Shown here: in pieces, positions 6,208 to 51,772 of the stretch | Numbering within the stretch: the stretch's first letter is position 1 | Layout of the letters: each line of letters begins with the position of its first letter | Source of the DNA: Blautia sp. | GTDB lineage: Bacteria > Bacillota > Clostridia > Lachnospirales > Lachnospiraceae | Length of the DNA: 51,779 nt | Assembly (NCBI GenBank): GCA_017515325.1 | Contig: JAFWGA010000045.1 | Location: 1 to 51,779 of the forward strand | Direction: 5' to 3' | The notes under the pieces: model-generated | Seen by the model: only the letters and a program-made list of their open reading frames with translations | Told to the model about the DNA's origin: nothing | Database searches by the model: none | Position numbers and translations under genes: made by a program

Positions 6208-7329
6208 ATGGCGAATATGAATGACTATCTGGATTGGCGCGGTGACCTGACCTTCTATCAGGATCCTTTCTGCGAGGTGGACAATCTGATCCTGGCTCAG
6301 CTGGCTTATACCGATTTTGACGGGATTGTGCCGGATTTGGCCAGTGGGGAGAAGATATCCCTCCGTGATGTATTTAACCAATATTATAAGCTTCACACGG
6401 CCGAAGAAATCCTGCACAGGGTCTCTTTCGTCAAGCTGGCTCCCTTTTTGATGGATAAGCTGGTACAGACTGCTCGTTTCCAGAATATCCGGCTGATGGC
6501 CTATGAAAATCATATCAATCAGGAAAAGGGTTCTCAGTTTTCAGCCATTACATATGAACTGGGAGACGGTTCCTTGTGCATTGCCTATCGCGGAACGGAT
6601 GACACCTTTACAGGCTGGAAGGAGGATTTCAAGTTCAGCTATCAGGATGAGACAATCGGTCAGGGGGTGGCTGTGGATTATCTCAATGCCATAGCCAGCG
6701 GCGCGGGGAAAAAACGCCTGAGGGTCTGCGGCCACTCCAAGGGAGGAAACTTTGCCGTCTATGCCGCGGCTATGGCTGAGCCGGAGTTTCAGCAGTGTCT
6801 GGACGCTGTCTATACCAATGACGGGCCTGGCTTCAGGGGAAAGCTGCTCCGGAACGCAGGCTATCACAGAGTTCTGCCCTTGATCCATAGCTTTATCCCG
6901 GAGGATTCCGTGATCGGTCTGCTGCTGGAGAATATGTTTACCCACACTGTAGTCAAATGCAAGGGGATCGGAATCATGCAGCATGATGCCATGAACTGGG
7001 AGGTACTGGGACATCGTTTTGTCAGAGTGGCAGCCCCTTCGGAGACAAGCCGGTTCTTTCAGGAGACCTTCCGGCGCTGGATCGATGGGATGAGTGACAG
7101 GCAGAGGGAGGAATTTGTCCATTCCCTTTTTTCCATCGTGGAAGCCACAGGCGCCAGGACAATTGGGGAGATAAAGAAAGAAGGGCTGATCTCGGTGGGT
7201 GAGATGCTTCGCAAGATGTGGGAGATGCCGAAGGAGAAGCAGGCGGATTTCCTTGGCGCATGGGGAAGGCTGATTGCCAGCGCAAAGGATACGCTGGAAA
7301 GGGAAAGGGAAGGGGAATCAGAAGAGTGA
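6208..7329 (+). CDS. Mbeg1-like (DUF2974) alpha/beta hydrolase
   Basis: A 373-residue cytoplasmic protein without signal peptide. The lipase-type nucleophile elbow GHSKGGN lies around residue 177-183, and AYRGTDDTFTGWKEDF around residue 128-143 is the conserved oxyanion/Thr-Asp region of the DUF2974 family, which is annotated as lipase-like. The C-terminal 100 residues are helical and charged. The substrate is unknown. Its TGA overlaps the GTG start of nagA by four bases (GTGA), so the two are translationally coupled although no metabolic link is obvious. Confidence 0.85.
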   Translation: MANMNDYLDWRGDLTFYQDPFCEVDNLILAQLAYTDFDGIVPDLASGEKISLRDVFNQYYKLHTAEEILHRVSFVKLAPFLMDKLVQTARFQNIRLMAYENHINQEKGSQFSAITYELGDGSLCIAYRGTDDTFTGWKEDFKFSYQDETIGQGVAVDYLNAIASGAGKKRLRVCGHSKGGNFAVYAAAMAEPEFQQCLDAVYTNDGPGFRGKLLRNAGYHRVLPLIHSFIPEDSVIGLLLENMFTHTVVKCKGIGIMQHDAMNWEVLGHRFVRVAAPSETSRFFQETFRRWIDGMSDRQREEFVHSLFSIVEATGARTIGEIKKEGLISVGEMLRKMWEMPKEKQADFLGAWGRLIASAKDTLEREREGESEE

Positions 7330-8480
7330 CAGTATTTACAAATGCCTGTCTGTTTCAGGGAAAAAAAGGATTTGTCAAGGGCAGTCTTCGTGTCGAGGAT
7401 AAGCGTATCGTGGGGATTGTGCCTGAGGAACAGGAAGCAGCCGGGGCAAAAAAGGACGAGGAGAGAAAAGACCTTGGGGGAATGTATGTGCTGCCGGGGC
7501 TTGTGGATATCCATACGCATGGCAATTCTGGCTGTGATTTTTCGGACGGCAGTGTAGAAGGGCTGACACAGATGGGGAAGTATCTTGCCTCCCACGGGAT
7601 CACATCCTTTGCGCCGACATCCATGACATTGCCCTATGACAGGCTGGAAGCAGCCTTTGCCACCGCGGTAGACTATGGTAAGGATCGACCGGAGGCGGGG
7701 GCCAGAATCATCGGGATCAACATGGAAGGCCCTTATTTTTCGGAGAAGAAAAAGGGAGCCCAGAACAGCAGATATCTGAAGCTTCCGGATGCCAAAGGGT
7801 TTCTGGCTCTGCAGGAAGGCTGCAAAGGGCTGGTCCGCATTGTGGACATCGCCCCGGAACTGGAAGGGGCAGAGGCCTTTATCCGTGAGATATCACCCCG
7901 ATGCCGGGTGTCTGTGGCCCATACTGACGCCTCCTACGAGGAGGCTGTGCGGGCCTTTGAAGCCGGGGCCTCCCATGTCACCCATCTGTTTAACGCCATG
8001 CCTTTGCTCCACCATCGTAATCCAGGAGTGATCGGAGCGGCGTGGGAAAGAGACGATGTGACGGCGGAGCTGATCTGCGATGGCCTGCATGTGCATCCCA
8101 GCATGGTCCGGCTGGCCTTCAGAATGTTCCCGGGAAGAATCTGCCTGATCTCGGATTCGCTGCGCTGCTGCGGTATGCCCGACGGAGTATATGAGCTGGG
8201 GGGACAGGAGGTTATCCTCAAGGACGGTCAGGCCCGGCTGGCCAACGGGACTCTGGCAGGAGCGTCCTCGGATCTGTTTGAGGATATGGTAAATGCCATC
8301 CGTTTTGGCATTCCCCGGGAGGAAGCGATCATGGCCGCAACGATCAGGCCGGCACAGCAAGTGGGAGCAGATACCGAGGCAGGCAGCCTTGAGGTGGGAA
8401 AAAGGGCGGATTTTATCGTCTGTGATGAAAACTGGAGCCTGAAGGGGGTGTACATAGACGGGATCCGCATCCAGCTATAA
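7326..8480 (+). CDS. nagA: N-acetylglucosamine-6-phosphate deacetylase
   Basis: Encodes 384 residues from a GTG at 7326 overlapping the preceding stop; AAGGGG lies about 10 bases upstream, and the length fits the family (about 380). Longer in-frame extensions upstream would lie inside the previous gene. The amidohydrolase signature is complete: HTH at 63-65 (VDIHTHG), metal-binding E134 (NMEGPYF), HLFNAMPLLHHRNPG, LICDGLHVHP and LISDSL with the catalytic Asp. The enzyme removes acetate from GlcNAc-6-P in amino-sugar and cell-wall recycling. No nagB or nagR is seen next to it. It is followed by a hairpin terminator at 8500-8546. Confidence 0.93.
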   Translation: MTVFTNACLFQGKKGFVKGSLRVEDKRIVGIVPEEQEAAGAKKDEERKDLGGMYVLPGLVDIHTHGNSGCDFSDGSVEGLTQMGKYLASHGITSFAPTSMTLPYDRLEAAFATAVDYGKDRPEAGARIIGINMEGPYFSEKKKGAQNSRYLKLPDAKGFLALQEGCKGLVRIVDIAPELEGAEAFIREISPRCRVSVAHTDASYEEAVRAFEAGASHVTHLFNAMPLLHHRNPGVIGAAWERDDVTAELICDGLHVHPSMVRLAFRMFPGRICLISDSLRCCGMPDGVYELGGQEVILKDGQARLANGTLAGASSDLFEDMVNAIRFGIPREEAIMAATIRPAQQVGADTEAGSLEVGKRADFIVCDENWSLKGVYIDGIRIQL

Positions 8481-8499
8481 TATATGATTCCAGTGCAAA

Positions 8500-8546
8500 A
8501 AGCCTGTTCCCACGGCAAGCTCGCTTGCCGGTGGGGGCGAGGCTTT
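8500..8546 (+). terminator. Long hairpin, probable nagA terminator
   Basis: A nested stem, AAGCCT/AGGCTT, TTCCCAC/GTGGGGG (with wobble pairs) and GGCAAGC/GCTTGCC around TC, ends in TTTATTG. The U-tract is short, so termination could be partial. The sequence just before it (ATGATTCCAGTGCAAAAAGCC) recurs at 11618. Confidence 0.6.
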
Positions 8547-8576
8547 ATTGCACGCCCCTATATGAGCATGAAGTGG

Positions 8577-8614
8577 GTTGCTGCGTGCCAGTGGCACGCG
8601 TTCAGCAACGACCG
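8577..8614 (+). repeat. Compound-hairpin repeat, copy 1
   Basis: Outer stem GTTGCTG (8577-8583) with CAGCAAC (8603-8609); inner stem CGTGCC (8584-8589) with GGCACG (8593-8598); loop AGT; bulge CGTT (8599-8602); tail GACCG. The same architecture recurs at 8614-8653 and 51733-51772 with different paired bases. GAAGTGG precedes it, as at 30300. Confidence 0.8.
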
Positions 8615-8653
8615 GTTCTGATGCCCGGTGGGCATCGTTCAGAACCGACCGAG
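8614..8653 (+). repeat. Compound-hairpin repeat, copy 2
   Basis: Outer stem GGTTCTG (8614-8620) with CAGAACC (8640-8646); inner stem ATGCCC (8621-8626) with GGGCAT (8630-8635); loop GGT; bulge CGTT (8636-8639); tail GACCGAG (8647-8653). It abuts copy 1 directly. Confidence 0.8.
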
Positions 8654-8693
8654 CCGAGAGGCGAGACCCGGCAGGCTGCTCAAATCCAATGCA

Positions 8694-8724
8694 GTAAACG
8701 AACCAAATGGTTTTGTTCGTTTAC
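8694..8724. promoter_or_regulatory. Perfect 10-bp inverted repeat upstream of modABC
   Basis: GTAAACGAAC and GTTCGTTTAC flank an 11-base loop. It lies about 250 bp before modA and could be an operator or an RNA hairpin. It has no U-tract for a terminator. Regulator unknown. Confidence 0.5.
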
Positions 8725-8976
8725 GATAGTACCAGTGGGAATATGCATAGAAAGGAGGACCGAGAGGTAACCAGGCAATTTACATTTCCCTGTGAAGAGG
8801 TTCTGTGTGAAGAGGACGGACGGGGAAGCATAACTGACAACCCAATAAGAAAAAAACGGAAGAGCCTTTACCGGTGATTTGGGCATTTCAACAGGATTCC
8901 TTCTGAAAGACGAAGGAAATCCGGGATGGGTAGACCGGCAAGGGCAGATCCCTGAGAGACGGGATAGGAGTGAAAA
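8725..8976 (+). other. Gene-free leader of the modABC operon
   Basis: No credible gene. The segment can form hairpins: TTCCTTC with GAAGGAA at about 8899-8920, and GGGAT with ATCCC at about 8925-8954, close to the modA ribosome binding site. Molybdate genes are sometimes preceded by the Moco riboswitch, but I cannot recognise its conserved core here, so the leader is left unassigned. Confidence 0.4.
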
Positions 8977-9804
8977 ATGAGAAAAACAGGTAAAATGAGA
9001 ATGCTTGTGCCGACGATACTGGCAGTAATCCTGACAACGAGTGTGTGTTCGGCTGCGTCCGATGCTAAGGAGCTGACGGTCTTTGCCGCGGCTTCCATGA
9101 CGGAGACCCTGACGCAGATCAAGGAGCTTTATGAAGCGGAGAACCCGGACATCGTGCTGACCTTTAACTTTGACTCATCGGGTACCTTAAAGACCCAGAT
9201 CGAGGAAGGGGCAGACTGTGACGTCTTTATTTCCGCCGGGCAGAAGCAGATGAATGAACTGGATATTTCTGCAGGCGAAGAGAAGAATCCGGACCAGCTT
9301 GACTTTGTGTTGGAGGGTTCCCGCATCGATCTTCTGGAGAACAAGGTGGTACTGGTGGTGCCGGAAGGGAATCCCAGGGGAATTGAGAGCTTTGACTCTC
9401 TGGCAGAGCTTTTGAAGGAGGGCGAGATCCTCCTGGCTATGGGAAACGCTGATGTCCCGGTGGGACAGTATACCCAGAAGATCCTGGCCTACTATGGGCT
9501 GGACGAGGCTGAACTTGCCGCAGCAGGCAAGATCACCTATGGGACAAATGTGAAAGAAGTGACCACACAGGTAGTTGAGGGAAGTGTGGACTGCGGTGTG
9601 GTTTATGGAACGGATGCCTTCAGCGCGGGGCTGGAGCCTGTGGACAGGGCAACGGCCGAAATGTGCGGACAGGTGATCTATCCGGCAGCTGTGATGAAGA
9701 ACAGTACGGCTGTAGACGATGCCCAGGCATTCCTGGATTATCTGGGCAGCGATGAGGCAATGGCAGTATTTGAAGGAGTCGGTTTCTCTCAGGTGGCAGA
9801 ATAA
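8977..9804 (+). CDS. modA: Molybdate ABC transporter, substrate-binding protein
   Basis: A 275-residue exported protein that captures molybdate (or tungstate) outside the cell and hands it to ModB. After a signal peptide (about residues 1-29) the mature part begins KELTVFAAASMTETL, the conserved ModA N-terminus with the oxyanion-binding Ser, and continues with FDSSGTLKTQIEEGADCDVFISA, typical of the family. The signal region has a Cys (TSVCSA), but Val before it is not a standard lipobox, so lipid anchoring is uncertain. TAGGAG precedes the start. First gene of modABC, 19 bp before modB. Confidence 0.93.
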   Translation: MRKTGKMRMLVPTILAVILTTSVCSAASDAKELTVFAAASMTETLTQIKELYEAENPDIVLTFNFDSSGTLKTQIEEGADCDVFISAGQKQMNELDISAGEEKNPDQLDFVLEGSRIDLLENKVVLVVPEGNPRGIESFDSLAELLKEGEILLAMGNADVPVGQYTQKILAYYGLDEAELAAAGKITYGTNVKEVTTQVVEGSVDCGVVYGTDAFSAGLEPVDRATAEMCGQVIYPAAVMKNSTAVDDAQAFLDYLGSDEAMAVFEGVGFSQVAE

Positions 9805-9823
9805 CGGATAAGGAGAGCGAGGC

Positions 9824-10525
9824 ATGGACTGGTATCCGCTCTATAATTCCCTGCGGATTGCAGCAATCAGCTGTGGAATCGTTTTTTTTGCGGGAATCGC
9901 TGCTGCCAGCTTTGCAGCCAGGCTCCCCAGATGGCTGAAGGGGATTCTTGACGTTGTTTTCACTCTTCCCATGGTACTGCCCCCAACCGTCTGCGGCTAT
10001 TTTCTTCTTCTGCTGTTTGGAGTGCGGCGTCCTTTGGGTCGTCTTCTCCTGCGATATGGAATCAGGCTGGTGATGAACTGGCCGGGCGGTGTGGTTGCGG
10101 CTTCAGTGGTAGCCTTTCCCCTGATGTACCGTACCGCAAGGGGGGCCTTTGAGAGCTTTGACGACAATCTGGCCTGGGCGGGACAGACCCTGGGGCTTGG
10201 CAATATCTGGATTTTCTGGCGGGTGAAAATGCCTGCCTGCCGGCAGGGAATCCTGGCGGCTACCGTTCTTGCCTTTGCCAGGGCGCTGGGAGAATATGGC
10301 GCAACGAGCATGCTGATCGGTTATACGCCAGGAAAAACGGCGACGGTTTCCACGACGGTTTATCAGCTCTGGAGGACCAATGATGAAGCCGGCGCCTTTT
10401 TCTGGGTGATGGTCAATCTCGCCATCTCCACCGTGGTTCTGCTGGTCGTCAATCTGCTGGAGGACAGGCAGAAGACAGGCGGCAGGAGAAGGGAGGAGCT
10501 TCGTGGCACTGGAAGTGGACATTGA
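9824..10525 (+). CDS. modB: Molybdate ABC transporter, permease
   Basis: A 233-residue membrane protein with five to six hydrophobic segments. The permease-ATPase contact loop is present (ARALGEYGATSMLIGYTPGKT around residues 150-170), as is the ModB motif TLPMVLPPTVCGYFLL. It forms the membrane channel for molybdate with ModA and ModC. AAGGAG precedes the start; its last 23 bases overlap modC, indicating translational coupling. Confidence 0.93.
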   Translation: MDWYPLYNSLRIAAISCGIVFFAGIAAASFAARLPRWLKGILDVVFTLPMVLPPTVCGYFLLLLFGVRRPLGRLLLRYGIRLVMNWPGGVVAASVVAFPLMYRTARGAFESFDDNLAWAGQTLGLGNIWIFWRVKMPACRQGILAATVLAFARALGEYGATSMLIGYTPGKTATVSTTVYQLWRTNDEAGAFFWVMVNLAISTVVLLVVNLLEDRQKTGGRRREELRGTGSGH

Positions 10526-11543
10526 AAAGAGAGCAGGCGGCTTTCATTTACAGACGGCATTTTCCTGTCGGGAGGAGATAATGGGAATTCTGGGTTCTTC
10601 CGGCAGTGGAAAAAGTATGACCCTGAAGTGTATTGCGGGGATTGAGAAGCCGGACAGGGGAAGGATCGTACTGGACGGGAGGATCCTTTTTGATTCACAG
10701 CGCAGGATCAATCTGCCTCCGCAGAAGCGCCACGTGGGTTACCTGTTTCAGAATTACGCCCTTTTTCCCAATATGACGGTAGAGCAGAACATCCTGTGCG
10801 GCCTGCATGGGGAAAGGGACAGGAAAAGAAGGAAAGAGGAAGCCGGAAGGGTCATGAAGCTGCTGCAGATCAACGAGCTGGCTTCCCTGCGGCCGGCCCA
10901 GCTTTCGGGAGGGCAGGCTCAGAGAGCGGCTCTGGGGCGTATCCTGGTGAATCAGCCCGGTCTTCTGATGCTGGATGAGCCCTTTTCCGCCTTGGACGCC
11001 TTTCTGAGGCTGAGGCTGCAGATGGAGCTGAAGGAGCTGCTGGCATCCTATGGCAAGACTATCCTGATGGTGACGCATGACCGGGATGAGGCCTTTCATA
11101 TGTGTGGCAGGCTTGGGGTGATGGAGAGGGGAAGAATGCTGGCGGTCAAGGAAACCAAGGCATTGTTTGCCGATCCGGGAACCAGGGAGGCGGCCATCAT
11201 GACAGGCTGCAAAAACATCGCTCCGGCCGAAAAGACCGGAGAGCATGAGGTCTTTGTCCCGGACTGGGGGATTCATCTGCGTACCGGGAAAAGAGTGGAG
11301 GAAGGGCTTTCTGCCATCGGTATCCGCGCCCACTATTTTCATCCGACTTCTCCCCAGAATACCTATACGATCAGATACGTGGGGGAAATGGAGGAGCCCT
11401 TTGCCTGGGTCGCACAGTTCCGCTATGAGGGGCAGGCTTCGGAAAGCCCGGCTCTGTGGTGGCGTTACCCTAAGGAGAAACGGCCTGCAGTCTTCCCGGA
11501 AAAACTGGGCGTGGCACCGGCCAATATCCTGCTTTTATATTGA
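10503..11543 (+). CDS. modC: Molybdate ABC transporter, ATP-binding protein
   Basis: A 346-residue ATPase starting at a GTG with GGAGGAG four bases upstream. Walker A GSSGSGKS at 31-38, Q-loop LFQNYALFPNM, signature LSGGQAQRAALGR, Walker B LLMLDEPFSALD and switch His in VTHDRDEAF are all present. The C-terminal 100 residues are a regulatory-type extension with no obvious full Mop domain. It powers ModB and the reading frame overlaps it by 23 bp. A strong terminator follows at 11561. Confidence 0.93.
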   Translation: MALEVDIEKRAGGFHLQTAFSCREEIMGILGSSGSGKSMTLKCIAGIEKPDRGRIVLDGRILFDSQRRINLPPQKRHVGYLFQNYALFPNMTVEQNILCGLHGERDRKRRKEEAGRVMKLLQINELASLRPAQLSGGQAQRAALGRILVNQPGLLMLDEPFSALDAFLRLRLQMELKELLASYGKTILMVTHDRDEAFHMCGRLGVMERGRMLAVKETKALFADPGTREAAIMTGCKNIAPAEKTGEHEVFVPDWGIHLRTGKRVEEGLSAIGIRAHYFHPTSPQNTYTIRYVGEMEEPFAWVAQFRYEGQASESPALWWRYPKEKRPAVFPEKLGVAPANILLLY

Positions 11544-17454: not shown

Positions 17455-17744
17455 ATTAAAGTAAACCGTTGAGAAAGAGTGAGTAAGTGGTTTCCCTGTC
17501 ACTCCAGAGAGCTGCGGATGGTGGGATCGCAGTGTGATATACTTCACCGAATGGACTTTCGAGGGCGCGGAAGAAGGGGTTCTGTGTATTCTGCGACGCT
17601 GCAGGCAGGCGTTATCTGCCGGGGATATGCTGGTATCCTGCTAAGTGCGCGGTTTTTGCCGTGAATTCAAGGTGGCACCGCGGATAGGTTGAGTTCATCT
17701 ATTCGTCCTTGACAGAAAGCATAATTCTGCCAAGGACTTTTTTT
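17455..17744 (+). promoter_or_regulatory. Tryptophan T-box riboswitch with terminator
   Basis: The T-box sequence AAGGTGGCACCGCGG lies at about 17669-17683. The stem I specifier reads GAATGGAC, with the UGG (Trp) codon at 17552-17554. The terminator is GTCCTTGACAGAA (17705-17717) paired to TTCTGCCAAGGAC (17725-17737) with seven T. Uncharged tRNA-Trp would pair with UGG and with the antiterminator bulge, allowing readthrough into trpDBA when tryptophan is short. The leader starts after the promoter at 17418-17446. Confidence 0.93.
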
Positions 17745-27371: not shown

Positions 27372-27446
27372 CATCGCCAACTGATGACAACGCGGCAGAT
27401 GCTTGCGAAGACAAGTCAGAGGGCGGAGGAATTTAATTACAGGGCC
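27372..27446 (+). mobile_element. MITE-like element, right-half copy
   Basis: Seventy-five bases matching the right half of the element at 34150-34303, from CATCGCCAACTG to the terminal ATTTAATTACAGGGCC, followed by TAA as in the full copy. The left half and left terminal repeat are absent. Confidence 0.75.
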
Positions 27447-27471
27447 TAAACACGAAAAGGATGGATAAAGG

Positions 27472-30306: not shown

Positions 30307-30330
30307 GTTGCTGTGTGCCGGTGGCACGCG
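30307..30330 (+). repeat. Compound-hairpin repeat, truncated copy
   Basis: GTTGCTG (30307-30313), inner stem TGTGCC (30314-30319) with GGCACG (30323-30328) around GGT, and the first two bases of the CGTT bulge. The closing outer arm is missing. The 5' flank GAAGTGG is the same as before copy 1 at 8577. Confidence 0.65.
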
Positions 30331-34077: not shown

Positions 34078-34149
34078 CAAGCTGCTGCGTCGCATCCTGT
34101 CATTGCAGGGGCAGCTCCCGGCATGATCGTGCGAGACCCATGTGACTAA

Positions 34150-34303
34150 GGCACTGTAATTAAATAACTTAGCCATATGACGCAGTATTCGTAAGCATAT
34201 GCAAGGCGGAGGAAGGCGGCGATGCGGGCATCGCCAACTGACGACAACGCGGCAGATGATTGCGAAGACAAGTCAGAGGGCGGAGGAATTTAATTACAGG
34301 GCC
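34150..34303 (+). mobile_element. MITE-like element with 16-bp terminal inverted repeats
   Basis: Ends GGCACTGTAATTAAAT (34150-34165) and ATTTAATTACAGGGCC (34288-34303) are inverted repeats with one mismatch, flanked on both sides by TAA (possible 3-bp target duplication). The body is non-coding and contains the perfect hairpin GGCGATG/CATCGCC with loop CGGG, and CTGAC/GTCAG arms. Partial copies at 27372-27446 and 51640-51732. A short open frame on the minus strand (MAKLFNYSAL) is only the terminal repeat read backwards. Confidence 0.85.
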
Positions 34304-34357
34304 TAAAGACGGATAGCTGAAATGGAGCTCGTGACGGAACAGTGGCGAAGCATGTAA

Positions 34358-46914: not shown

Positions 46915-46943
46915 TAGAAAATGTCGTTTTTTTTCTGTATAAT
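46915..46943 (+). promoter_or_regulatory. Putative promoter of the large secreted-protein gene
   Basis: TAGAAA (46915-46920), a 17-base spacer rich in T, and a perfect TATAAT (46938-46943). Confidence 0.55.
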
Positions 46944-47001
46944 GAAAGGCGATAGCTGCAAACGGGATAAGGAAAACAGTAAAGTGGGAAAGGAGGAGAG
47001 A

Positions 47002-50000
47002 ATGATGAGGCGCTTTGGAGCAATTGGTATTTCTCTGGTTCTGGCAGTTGTCACTTTTGTGGGATCCCAGACGTGGGGAGAAAACATGGATCCGTTTATC
47101 TCGGGAAGTGTGGATACGGATATTTTTTCAGGGTATAGTCAAGATTCCGGTGATCCGGACATTTTCGGATCGGGAAAGGAATACACAGAAGATGAGGGGC
47201 TTATTCCCGTACGGGAAGATCCGGCAGAGGTTTTCCTTCATCCGGATGCTCCCAGACAGGAGGAGCTTTTTTCCGGAGGAGAAGGGAATCCTTCATTTAC
47301 AGAAGGCAATGCGGAAAACACCTATCCTGAAAGCCCTGCTTCAGGGGAGCCGGGAGAGGTCTCTTTGTTTCAGGCACCGGATCCTTTGGCGGGAATCCAG
47401 GAGCAGTCAGCATTGTTTCAGGCGGGGGATGTTGAGACGGAAAAAGAAGAGGACTATGCCGACAGTACGACATCCTTTCTGCCCTTGGCAGGCCAGGTCG
47501 TCATGCCTGTAGAGGAGCCGCCTTATTATGCTGGAGCAACGCTTGGCTCAGTACAGGCATCTGAAATCAGGACAAACTGCGATACCTATGCCGGAAGCAA
47601 CGTAGACGGGCATTCGTATCTCTATCAGAACTTCAGCAAGGTGCATCAATCTTTCCTGGAAATACTGCCTGACGGAACATTGATGCGGATTCAGGCAAAT
47701 GCCATAGAGGGATATCTTCTGGCTGAATATTATGATGATCAGCTGAATTATATCAGGAAGACAGTGATTCCTTATACGATGCCTTTATTTGGCGGGTTTT
47801 ATTATACGGATGATGCCTATTTCCTGCTGACCGGTCAGGATGATGCAGAGCAGGATTATGGGAAGGTTGTCTATCGGCTGGAGAAATATTCTGCGGATTG
47901 GTCTCTGCTGGGAAGGGCTGACATTACGGCAGGCCAGGCCAGAATCGACAGCAGCAACTGGGGAGCCGACACGGACGATACTTCTACGGAAAAACCATTC
48001 GACGCATCGGGAGTTTCTTTTGCCCAAAATGGCCGATTTCTGATTGCCCGTATGGGACGGCAGATGTTTAACGGCCATCAGAGCAATATGACTCTCGAAT
48101 GTAACATGGATACGATGGAGGTTCTGTGTTCGACACCGGTAGGATATATCAGTCATTCCTTTAACTCCATTCCACTGATTGAAGGCTCGGATTTTGTCTC
48201 TATGGATCATGGAGATGCTTATGACAGAGGCCTGATCCTGCAGAGCTTCGCTTTTGATCCTGTCACCGGAAAAATCGGTGTGGATGGTTATAATCCGGCC
48301 CTTACAAAGATCAATCTGTTTGGTTTCCCCGGTGAATTGGGAGACAATTATACAGGGGCATCCCTGGGAGGTTTTTCTTCCTCCGATTCCTGCTATCTGA
48401 CAGCAGGAACCTATGACGCTGAATATGGAGACGGTGCTTGCCGAAACGTATTTGTGGCAGCCTTGGCCAAGGGGGAAACGGAACCGACCATCCATTGGTA
48501 TTCCAATTATGGGGGAACAGGAGCTACAGCCTCCAATCCTTATTTGGTCAAGCTGGGAAGCAATGACTTTATGCTTTTGTGGTCGAGCGGCCGGATCGTG
48601 TATTATGTCCGGCTGGATGGTACAGGGGCAGCGATAAGCTCTGTTTACAGTATGGAAGGAAATCTTTCCGACTGTGTGCCTGTGGTGTATGGTCAGAGTG
48701 TCATCTGGTATGCCTGGGCGGATGAGACGGTGGTCTTTTATCAACTGGATCTGACAGATCTGTCTCAAAACGCAGCAGTAAAAATTGTTAACGGGCATCA
48801 GTTTGTGTATGGAGGACCTGTAAACGGGGAGGTCGTCAGAACATGTACTGCCTGTGGAAAACAGGAGACGGTTGCGGTACCGACCAGCTTCAGCAGAATC
48901 TGGTGGCATGGAAAGGAGTCGGAGGAGTATACCTATTCCACGGCGTATGATACTACCCTGCAGCCCGGGGATTATTATGAGATCATAGTGGAATGGGTAT
49001 TTTCTTCTTCTCTGACAGATCAGGCCGGAGAGCTTGAACTGGTGTCTTCGGACCCTGCCGTTATATCAGTGGATATGGTGGAAGGAAATCAGGCAAGGAT
49101 TACGGCACAGTCCTTTGGAAATGCGGATCTGATTATTCAGGCAAAGAATAATCCTTCTGTACAAAGGAAAGTGACTTTTTCTGTTCCTGATCCAACATGG
49201 ACGCCATCGCCCACGCCCACGCCTACACCTACACCTACACCTACACCCAAGCCCACGTCTACACCTACACCTACACCAACACCAAAGCCGACAGCGACAC
49301 CTACACCTACCCCTACCCCTACCCCTACACCTACAGCGACGCCAAGACCGACAGCGACGCCAAGGCCGACAGCGACACCTACACCTACAGCAACGCCAAG
49401 ACCGACAGCGACGCCAAGGCCGACAGCGACACCTACACCTACAGCAACGCCAAGACCGACAGCGACGCCAAGGCCGACAGCGACACCTACACCTAAACCG
49501 ACAGCAACGCCAAGGCCGACAGCGACACCTACACCTACAGCAACGCCAAGACCGACAGCGACGCCAAGGCCGACAGCGACACCTACACCCAAACCGACAG
49601 TAACGCCAAGGCCGACAGCAACACCTGTCCCTTCTGCCAGACTGGCAAGAATTTCCACACCAGCCGTAGTGAATCTGGCAGGTGGCATCAAGCTCAGTTG
49701 GAAAGCGGTTCCTTACGCGCGTTATTATGGCATCTATCGGGGGGTAAATGGTAAAGTAACCCCCCTTGCGAAAACAACTGCCGTGACATTTGCAGACGCA
49801 AGTACTATCAATGGGAATATGTATACGTATTATGTGCAGGCGCTGGGGTACAAAACCTCCAGGCAAGTATTCCTGGCCGGTACCAGATCGGCAGTGGCAC
49901 CCATATTCCGGTTATCAGGAGGCAGACTGAAGGCAAGTTCTCTCAAAGCAAGGACGGCCACGCTTCTATGGGAGCGAAATGCAAAGGCAGGGGGATACCA

Positions 50001-50196
50001 GATTCGGATGTCCTTCAACAGAAGCTTTACCAACAGCAGAAGTATCGGAATTACGAACCCCGCTATAGGAAGAAAGGTCATCAGTAATCTGACCTCCGGA
50101 AAGACCTATTTCTTCCAAATCCGAAGCTATAAGCTTGTGAGTGGAAAGCGGTATTTCGGCTCATGGAGCAGTATTGTTTCCGTAAAGATAAAATAG
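47002..50196 (+). CDS. Large secreted multidomain protein with Pro/Thr-repeat linker and Fn3-like domains
   Basis: Encodes 1064 residues from the ATG at 47002 (next ATG at 47005), with AAGGAGGAGAG upstream. A signal peptide (about 1-25) is followed by an acidic low-complexity stretch to about 180. The 180-600 region has repeated beta-strand units suggestive of a propeller (unrecognised). RTCTACGKQ near 613 is a CxxC pair of the kind seen in clostridial surface proteins. An Ig-like domain (about 650-730) precedes a Thr/Pro/Arg/Ala linker (733-876) and two Fn3-like domains (about 880-970, 975-1064). No LPxTG or SLH anchor at the end. Likely an adhesin or a wall-spanning carbohydrate-binding protein (inference). 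Confidence 0.8.
49201..49626 (+). repeat. Pro/Thr linker-coding repeat with 54-bp units
   Basis: A first part of short ACACCT/ACGCCC units (PTPTPTP) leads into 54-bp units encoding [18 protein letters not shown], at about 49336, 49390 and 49444, then shortened variants with KPT. The units are nearly identical, so copy number probably varies by slippage or recombination. The open frame on the opposite strand here is only a by-product of the repeat. Confidence 0.92.
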
Positions 50197-50284: not shown

Positions 50285-51649
50285 ATGAGAAAAAATATCC
50301 AAATCGCCTATATTGGTGGCGGCTCCCGCGGCTGGGCATGGAATTTTATGACAGATCTGGCTATGGACGATGAGATTGGCGGCAGATTACGTCTGTATGA
50401 TATCGATGAAGAGGCAGCAGACAAGAATGCGAGGATCGGGGCACATCTGATGTCGCGTCCTGACGCGAAGGGGGAGTGGGAATTTTCCGTCTGCAAAAGT
50501 CTGGCGGAAGCCTTGGAGGGAAGCGACTTCGTGGTTATTTCCATATTGCCGGGCACCTTTGACGAAATGGCAGTGGATGTACATATGCCGGAAAGACTGG
50601 GGATTTATCAGTCTGTCGGAGATACGGCAGGACCTGGAGGCATGATCCGGGCCCTTCGCACCATCCCCATGTTTGTGGAGATTGCCGAAGCAGTAAGGGA
50701 ATATGCCCCGCAAGCCTGGGTAATCAATTATACGAATCCCATGTCACTGTGTGTAAAAACCTTGTACGAGGTTTATCCTGAGATCAAGGCTTTCGGTTGC
50801 TGCCATGAGGTATTCGGGACGCAGAAGGTTCTCAAAGGCATCTATGAAAGGCAGACAGGCGGGAAGATCGAGGATTGGCATGATGTTTTTGTGAATGTCA
50901 TCGGGATCAATCATTTTACCTGGTTTACCGAAGCATCCTATGGGGATATCGACCTTTTCCCCATCTACCGAGATTATATTGAAAGGCATTTTGAGGAGGG
51001 GTATGAGCTGGAGGGAGAGAACTGGCTGAACTCCCATTTTGCCTGCCGCCACAGGGTTAAAATGGATCTGTTTAAACGGTATGGTCTGATTGCAGCAGCC
51101 GGCGACAGACACCTGGCAGAGTTTATGCCGGGAGATGAATACCTGAAGGACCCCGAAACAGTAAAGAGCTGGAATTTCAGTCTGACAAGTGTTGACTGGA
51201 GAAAGAAGGATCTTCAGAACCGCCTGGCCAGAAGCCAGCGCCTGCTTACGGGAGCGGAGGAGATTCCCCTGGTAGAGACCGGCGAAGAAGGAGTTATGCT
51301 GATCAAAGCTTTGTGCGGTCTGTCCCGCAGCATCAGCAATGTGAATCTTCCCAACCGTGGCCTTCAGATCCCGAATCTGCCGGAAACTGCGGTTGTGGAA
51401 ACGAATGCTGTATTCAGCCGTGACTCCGTCCGTCCGATCCAGGCCGGCAAGGTTCCTCAGAAGGTAAAGGAGCTTCTAATGCCCCACATTGAAAATCATG
51501 ACAGGATTTACAATGCCGCGAGGAGACATGACGTCGAACTGGTCGTAGAGGCTTTTCTGCACGATCCACTGGTCATGGGGAAAAAATGTTCGGAGGAAGA
51601 CATCCGACTCCTGGTAAAGGATATGATAGCAGGAACTAAGGCACTGTAA
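50285..51649 (+). CDS. GH4-family NAD-dependent glycosidase
   Basis: Encodes 454 residues from the ATG at 50285, eight bases after GAGGAG; the ATG at 50273 has no site. The NAD-binding loop is GGGSRGW (11-17); the metal-site Cys/His are C172-C173-H174 in GCCHEVFGTQ, with NYTNPMS upstream and GINHFTW after it. GH4 enzymes cleave alpha- or beta-glycosides by a redox mechanism using NAD and Mn. Substrate (galactoside, glucoside, galacturonide) cannot be read. The final residues KAL and the stop lie inside a MITE-like element that begins at 51640, so the native C-terminus was probably altered by insertion. Confidence 0.9.
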   Translation: MRKNIQIAYIGGGSRGWAWNFMTDLAMDDEIGGRLRLYDIDEEAADKNARIGAHLMSRPDAKGEWEFSVCKSLAEALEGSDFVVISILPGTFDEMAVDVHMPERLGIYQSVGDTAGPGGMIRALRTIPMFVEIAEAVREYAPQAWVINYTNPMSLCVKTLYEVYPEIKAFGCCHEVFGTQKVLKGIYERQTGGKIEDWHDVFVNVIGINHFTWFTEASYGDIDLFPIYRDYIERHFEEGYELEGENWLNSHFACRHRVKMDLFKRYGLIAAAGDRHLAEFMPGDEYLKDPETVKSWNFSLTSVDWRKKDLQNRLARSQRLLTGAEEIPLVETGEEGVMLIKALCGLSRSISNVNLPNRGLQIPNLPETAVVETNAVFSRDSVRPIQAGKVPQKVKELLMPHIENHDRIYNAARRHDVELVVEAFLHDPLVMGKKCSEEDIRLLVKDMIAGTKAL

Positions 51650-51732
51650 TTAAATAACTTAGCCATATGACGCAGTATTCGTGAGCATATGCAAGGCGGA
51701 GGAAGGCGGCGATGCGGGCATCGCCAACTGAC
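51640..51732 (+). mobile_element. MITE-like element, left-part copy
   Basis: Matches 34150-34242 almost base for base (one A/G difference near 51683), starting with the same terminal repeat after TAA. It then leaves the element sequence at CTGACG and continues as compound hairpin copy 3. The right terminal repeat is not reached in the window. Confidence 0.85.
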
Positions 51733-51772
51733 GGCGCTGAGTGCCTGTGGCACTCGTTTAGCGCCGACCGAG
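51733..51772 (+). repeat. Compound-hairpin repeat, copy 3
   Basis: Outer stem GGCGCTG (51733-51739) with TAGCGCC (51759-51765, one G-T pair); inner stem AGTGCC (51740-51745) with GGCACT (51749-51754); loop TGT; bulge CGTT (51755-51758); tail GACCGAG (51766-51772), as in copy 2. Confidence 0.8.

Follow-up and report, generated by a model that had tools for sequence, protein, structure and literature searches.

A hairpin module of about 50 bp as a probable non-autonomous mobile element in Blautia sp. and other Lachnospirales

The contig JAFWGA010000045.1 of a Blautia sp. genome (GCA_017515325.1), called here the window (the whole stretch of 51,779 nucleotides that was analysed), contains two abutting hairpins starting at 8577 and 8614 and a third one starting at 51733, which differ in the letters of their stems and share an NGT loop, a CGTT bulge and a GACCG tail. 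The question raised by this locus is what kind of element would keep its fold while the sequence of its stems changes. Here it is proposed that the three hairpins belong to a module of about 50 bp, composed of hairpin 1 (HP1), a GACC linker and mini-hairpin 2 (HP2), which is probably a non-autonomous mobile palindromic element, similar in its working to repetitive extragenic palindromes (REPs) or Rickettsia palindromic elements (RPEs), and which is probably handled as a folded single strand.

Fold and covariation of the module

The three hairpins have the stems, loops, bulges and tails that an earlier sequence-only reading of the window had described. The stretch 8577-8668 folds better than its shuffles, both as DNA (z -5.68, 0 of 200 as good) and as RNA (z -4.31, 1 of 200 as good). 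A covariance model of the hairpin (R1) gives 49.5 bits (E 2e-13) for the copy at 8577, 68.2 bits (E 4e-19) for that at 8614 and 60.8 bits (E 8e-17) for that at 51733; the first two copies were part of the training set and the third was left out, though its close relative L045 was included. Since three copies are weak evidence for covariation, larger copy sets were used. The pairing of HP1 was judged from three such sets only, because the copy scanner, used for the hosts, the empty sites, HP2, the flanks and the target test, favours a paired HP1.

Set (a) comprises 25 chosen HP1 copies from 15 genomes, with 99.4% of the cells paired. Both sides have changed in eight of the 13 pairs, which 1 of 500 shuffles equals, and there are 49 double-change cells against 13.1 in the shuffles, 0 of 500 shuffles reaching the double-change count or the covariation score. 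Set (b) was obtained with a pattern fixing the 3' half only, which had at least 121 matches in at least 112 genome stretches, 120 of them with room for the 5' arm. The sequence-only reading had named a majority of unpaired copies as the finding that would count against it; with this pattern 109 of the 120 copies are fully paired, as are 48 of the 58 distinct arm sets, which include 35 distinct inner arm pairs, and the inner stem is 98.1% paired versus 76.9% (maximum 82.4%) after re-dealing the arms. Set (c), found with the loop GT, CGTT and GACCG only, holds 126 distinct copies from the collected loci, which were partly gathered by pairing-aware searches; unpaired positions number zero in 90 of them, one in 21, two in eight and four or more in seven. 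The counts of pair types leave out seven of the 126 copies. Pair 7 of HP1 is G.T in 107 of the other 119, and the remaining pairs are Watson-Crick (1406), G.T (15), A.C (17) or other (19), so that wobble pairs are not in excess, which is unlike typical RNA. To judge from these alignments, the HP1 stems are conserved as pairing and not as letters, with the bulge, most of the loop and GACC being fixed, and the co-varying stems and constant unpaired parts noticed in the window are confirmed.

The complete module is made of HP1 (33-35 nt, with 7 + 6-7 bp, the NGT loop and the CGTT bulge), GACC and HP2, mostly with a GNA or GNNA loop, nearly always followed by GA (directly 3' of HP2 in 120 of the 121 type I copies), the assignment of this GA to the host or to the element being uncertain. 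A GGA or GAA triloop (type I) is present in 121 of the 239 distinct copies, a longer G..A loop in 22, and 48 belong to type II (G.A or G..A loops); this count comes from a parser that imposed the GNA loop classes and left the stem letters free, and the 48 unparsed copies are tandem, cut or variant. The HP2 stem is paired in 119 of the 121 type I copies (shuffled mean 89.3, maximum 96), where it reads GC/GC in 79 tails, AC/GT in 21 and GT/AC in 16, and in 46 of the 48 type II copies (shuffled mean 35.7, maximum 40). As far as the aligned copies tell, both hairpins of the module co-vary. The compound hairpin plan of the sequence-only reading stands, and it is to be completed with HP2, with the two different hosts and with an empty host copy in the window, all of which had gone unremarked.

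According to the accessible part of PMC4686876, GNA or GNNA loops on two or more G-C pairs form very heat-stable, nuclease-resistant DNA mini-hairpins, which protect a 3' end on which they lie against 3' exonucleases. The same motif is found in HP2, as GC-GNA-GC or GCC-GNNA-GGC; unlike the mini-hairpins of that source, HP2 is a natural repeat with an extra flanking GNA, and the likeness is one of letters.

Hosts, empty sites and distribution

Copies of the module lie in many unrelated surroundings, mostly non-coding, which include repeats, structured RNA genes, tRNA remnants and some protein genes. The two sites of the window are themselves in different hosts, a truncated copy of the Clostridiales-1 RNA (RF01699), matching at 8485-8637 with 39.4 bits (E 4.9e-7) and under the gathering score of 48, and a repeat with terminal inverted repeats (TIR). 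At the first site the layout is tandem (HP1-GACC-HP1'-GACC-HP2-GACC), with GACC punctuating the copies. Clostridiales-1 RNAs carry the module at two sites and host many of its copies in the genome of the window (G000), where related copies exceed the RF01699 threshold; the best-scoring Clostridiales-1 copies have no module (L068) and most of those listed are too short to contain it. The module is an insert in this host and not part of the host family, which a 2010 table in the accessible part of PMC2864571 gives as a probable RNA, probably not cis-regulatory. Similarly, the GA-cis RNA (RF02987) carries the module and also exists free of it (L333, L350, L356): the match in L315 spans 131 nt versus the 88 positions of the model, with the module inside at 7089-7121, and in L310 and L312 the module starts within sub-threshold GA-cis matches. 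The sequence-only reading recognised no described family in the hairpins, and neither does Rfam, in which the module has no credible match in the stretches scanned, so that its being a part of a known RNA was rejected. Its neighbours match Clostridiales-1, GA-cis, tRNA and one group II intron, and a sub-threshold microRNA match at 8608-8652 (18.3 bits versus 61) is treated as chance.

Other hosts include the leader of a conserved predicted peptide of 32 residues without a Pfam match, in which the module occurs in both orientations (L061 and others versus L104 and L091), and tRNA-like remnants near tRNA genes. In a tandem tRNA cluster (L245), the last tRNA, whose 3' end runs into the module, scores 30 bits versus 45-69 for its neighbours. 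Among coding genes, the module of L060 adds exactly 17 codons relative to eight homologues without it and leaves the frame open, which documents that a hairpin unit can enter a gene in frame. The frame also stays open in L292, where the homologues are too variable to give the inserted length, whereas the frame of an integrase-like gene ends within the module in L250, and L284, with a module at the same place, has a changed downstream frame. The module is also found nested within itself (L251, L319, L249).

Three further observations concern these hosts. In the Clostridiales-1 copies L018, L035, L053 and L068, the left end can, by eye, pair either with the right end or with the 3' strand of the first hairpin, and the two partners appear to vary in concert from one subfamily to the next. 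The duplicated 3' ends of tRNA-like sequences, perhaps old attachment sites, repeatedly contain modules (L055, L056, L094, L163, L185, L224-L227, L260). A repeat family of the form GCGTGCCC..GGGG [module] GGGCTTCGCAACTCTGAG..CCCC is present in several genomes (L131-L140, L157-L160, L164, L165, L184), with no Rfam match in the three loci scanned.

After removing tandem, cut and redundant copies from the 349 available, 207 isolated distinct copies were left, and for 60 of these an empty-site relative was found among the collected loci, five of the 60 being self-like matches in tandem regions. With these five still included, filled sites exceed their empty relatives by a net 48-52 bp in 49 of 50 pairs for a 33-nt HP1 and by 51-53 bp in nine of ten for a 35-nt HP1. 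At the empty junction, GA or GAC is the most frequent sequence, and AAG, AA, GGA, GGCA, GAT and others also occur. Of the two features that define a miniature inverted-repeat transposable element, terminal inverted repeats are absent beyond HP1 itself, and the filled/empty pairs listed show no target-site duplication. Comparison of these loci shows the module as a sharp-ended unit beside a host GA. It is found at some sites and missing from their homologues, and it lies in many unrelated hosts, nested, in tandem and, within one host hairpin, in both orientations.

The genome of the window (3.3 Mb, 68 contigs, 88% complete) has 55 R1 matches and 48 BLAST matches to the 221-nt stretch 8540-8760, many of the copies examined lying at contig ends. 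The search of this genome and its relatives with a covariance model, suggested by the sequence-only reading, places the module in 47 of 64 genomes of the genus and in 48 of 295 sampled genomes of the order, covering 27 of 129 genera. Across the phylum, ten of 398 genomes pass, three of them strongly and all from the same family, and seven at E 3e-6 to 8.5e-4, which are treated as probable chance; the filters behind these three counts drop weak copies. Carriers in a scan of named genomes (80 of at least 112 stretches listed) are Lachnospiraceae, other Clostridiales, Eubacterium and Oscillospiraceae, mostly metagenome-assembled genomes, and the isolates among the matches listed include Eubacterium ruminantium ATCC 17233, Butyrivibrio sp. 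Su6, Mediterraneibacter agrestimuris and Clostridium sp. ASF356. A phage or plasmid origin was rejected, as these collections are almost free of the module: two patterns gave 0 and 1 stretches in viral contigs, unannotated faecal phage scaffolds had three partial matches and plasmids one 21-nt match. In a complete 2.9-Mb genome (G318), eight of nine module matches are within one 0.3-Mb chromosomal stretch (2.53-2.82 Mb).

Mobile elements and other origins compared

The unrelated hosts, the empty sites, the constant size, both orientations and the nesting argue for mobility, and the covariation together with the fixed bulge, loop and tag argues for recognition of a folded strand. The selection for a folded strand, or a REP-like element recognised as one, put forward in the sequence-only reading, is supported. 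A structured non-coding RNA or a protein-binding mRNA site, also offered there, is not the best reading, because the many hosts of the module are unrelated and have counterparts that lack it, and some copies lie in coding genes, in tRNA genes or in other modules. Single-stranded DNA (ssDNA) appears more likely than RNA as the mobile form, since G.T is no commoner than A.C outside the fixed G.T pair and HP2 has GNA/GNNA loops. In the proposed mechanism, a trans-acting enzyme would recognise the folded single strand by the bulge and GACC, with HP2 closing the 3' end, and would insert it typically 5' of a host GA, and copies would also multiply along with multiplying host repeats. Such a module would be a precise case of a very small mobile element that keeps its fold and not its sequence in an abundant gut lineage. 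It would explain the large inserts of Clostridiales-1 and GA-cis, two Rfam RNAs of unknown function; the models of both merit re-reading with these inserts removed, and the module's fixed bulge, GACC and mini-hairpin offer handles for finding the enzyme.

Several results weigh against this proposal. The copy number of the module correlates with Y1 transposases (rho 0.44, and 0.25 after genome size, p 0.049), and a known enzyme family may thus be involved. No recurring partner gene was found beside the modules within 2.5 kb in the 199 loci examined. Hairpin loops as preferred targets were not supported (38 of 122 sites, with 26.8% for the 1708 control positions and 27.9% for shuffles), and strain-level insertion was not seen in a sample of one genome per species. 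Finally, some copies are decayed, several copies in the genome of the window have CCTGCC/GGCACG mismatches, and at least six of the unparsed copies have other HP2 triloops, such as AGA or AAA.

With regard to partner genes, a dedicated neighbour was rejected, as the clusters of open reading frames (ORFs) at 2.5 kb or less from the modules consist for the most part of ABC transporters, regulators and the common neighbourhood of a single host. A reverse transcriptase as a required partner was also rejected, with no RVT_1 match in nine of 20 genomes, which include the high-copy G069, G070, G032, G058 and G346 and the 98% complete G065. A more specific form of the mobile-element proposal, which we regard as tentative, is a new class that moves as free ssDNA of about 50 nt, with the HP1 bulge and GACC as recognition site and HP2 as 3' cap, inserted before GA by an enzyme that is neither a reverse transcriptase nor a REP-associated tyrosine transposase (RAYT). 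If this holds, the structured RNAs, tRNAs and proteins of Lachnospirales would keep receiving new segments from it.

That the module is a true REP, moved by a RAYT or by a Y1 transposase of IS200/IS605 type acting in trans on ssDNA, is rather unlikely. In the available portions of PMC3733652, PMC8266576 and PMC6006769, REPs are, like the module, short, multi-copy and mostly intergenic hairpins, sometimes genic (REPs also enter genes, PMC3733652), with a stem bulge and a tetranucleotide foot, and are thought to be handled as ssDNA. The module also has a bulge that looks required and a tetranucleotide at its foot. However, this foot is GACC on the 3' side (GGTC on the other strand), and the stem has 7 + 6-7 bp around a 4-nt bulge, a 3-nt loop and a second mini-hairpin. 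As far as PMC3733652 is available, GTAG-tagged REPs have GTAG or GTGG directly 5' of the hairpin and a RAYT gene flanked by the repeat, and CGTC-tagged REPs have CGTC (TGTC, CCTC) at one end, a stem of 8-9 bp and a loop of 4-5 nt. In 205 distinct 5' flanks of the module, position -3 is T in only 33 and position -1 is G in 138, and the GTAG/GTGG foot was not found. The CGTC type is likewise not matched by GACC/GGTC, a compound stem of 13-14 bp and a 3-nt loop. No Clostridia carrier of REPs is named in the text available of these sources, 'clostrid' and 'firmicutes' occurring 0 times in that of PMC3733652 (also PMC8266576, PMC6006769).

Y1_Tnp is present in 40 of the 64 genomes of the genus and, as stated, correlates with copy number, with the reduction after genome size counting against this origin; by presence alone, 32 of 47 carriers and eight of 17 non-carriers have it (Fisher p 0.15). 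In G068, a Y1 fragment of 31 residues and an ORF with an HTH_OrfB_IS605 domain lie about 0.9 kb from the module L104. In contrast, 26 of the listed Y1 loci were examined with the copy scanner, and none has an intact module or is a RAYT gene flanked by the repeat; in L367, a single weak copy is 2.5 kb away from a Y1 fragment. The genome of the window, a draft with 55 copies, has no Y1 match, and G036 (65 copies) has Y1 only as a fragment at a contig end. RAYT-sized genes of the genus (248-277 aa) are L358, L359 and L362, the first two matching Y1_Tnp in Pfam, and no modules were found in the surrounding stretch examined of the three.

The RPEs of Rickettsia, about 150 bp long in the accessible part of PMC10969869, are compared by description: like the module, they are palindromic, have no known enzyme and are inserted in frame in genes, and the module likewise occupies some homologous sites and not others, with an in-frame case in a gene; unlike them, it has about 50 bp, is found in Lachnospirales and has mostly non-coding hosts. 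No such element was found in the open-licence literature of PubMed Central, including the available portions of PMC2864571, PMC3733652, PMC12306157, PMC6006769, PMC4686876, PMC8266576 and PMC10969869, and neither were the sequence strings of the module. The module is thus REP/RPE-like in its working and has neither of the REP tags, no RAYT link and an additional HP2.

It is improbable that the module has no transposition of its own and spreads with host repeats, recombination or template switching, its pairing being kept by the correction of palindrome arms. This correction is known as a neutral process, and many copies in the genome of the window and in G036 are identical composites at contig ends; however, the hosts are many and unrelated, the unit size is constant, a protein gene (L060) was hit by exactly one unit, and the unpaired bulge and the fixed G.T stay constant. 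Least probable is that the module works as an RNA domain, such as a binding site for a protein, which passes from one RNA to another and is retained by selection wherever it arrives. Its fold is conserved and two Rfam families (Clostridiales-1 and GA-cis) carry it, but the module also lies inside coding genes, across a tRNA 3' end (L245), in both orientations within a single host and inside other modules, its wobble pairs are not in excess and most Clostridiales-1 copies listed are too short to contain it.

Features of the window

The features related to the module are collected in Table 1, including the empty and partial copies of the TIR repeat and a truncated module.

Table 1. Module copies and their hosts in the window
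Feature	Position	Strand	Basis
5' part of truncated Clostridiales-1 RNA, host of the first two HP1 copies	8480..8576	+	RF01699 match
HP1, first copy: GTTGCTG / CGTGCC AGT GGCACG / CGTT / CAGCAAC	8577..8609	+	sequence, fold, covariance model
GACC linker	8610..8613	+	sequence
HP1, second, tandem copy: GGTTCTG / ATGCCC GGT GGGCAT / CGTT / CAGAACC	8614..8646	+	sequence, covariance model
GACC linker	8647..8650	+	sequence
HP2, type II: GA-GCC-GAGA-GGC-GA	8651..8664	+	sequence; family covariation
GACC 3' of HP2; host often has GA or GAC here at empty sites	8665..8668	+	
Partial empty copy of second (TIR repeat) host	27372..27459	+	sequence comparison
Truncated module: only 5' outer arm and inner hairpin	30307..30330	+	covariance model, sequence
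Empty copy of second (TIR repeat) host, ACTGAC^GACAACGC	34145..34316	+	comparison with the site at 51635
Second host, 5' part: TIR repeat	51635..51732	+	99% identity to 34145-34243
HP1, third copy: GGCGCTG / AGTGCC TGT GGCACT / CGTT / TAGCGCC	51733..51765	+	sequence, covariance model
GACC and start of HP2, ended by the contig end	51766..51779	+	sequence

Apart from the module, the window has a T-box leader (RF00230, 97.4 bits) at 17460-17713 on the forward strand and, at 49156-49659, an array of tandem repeats of about 18 bp inside an ORF of 1091 aa (46921-50196). Additionally, a near-perfect palindrome (8694-8724, 14-nt arms, 93%), which may be an operator, lies 5' of the genes for a solute-binding protein, a permease and an ATPase (8977-11543).
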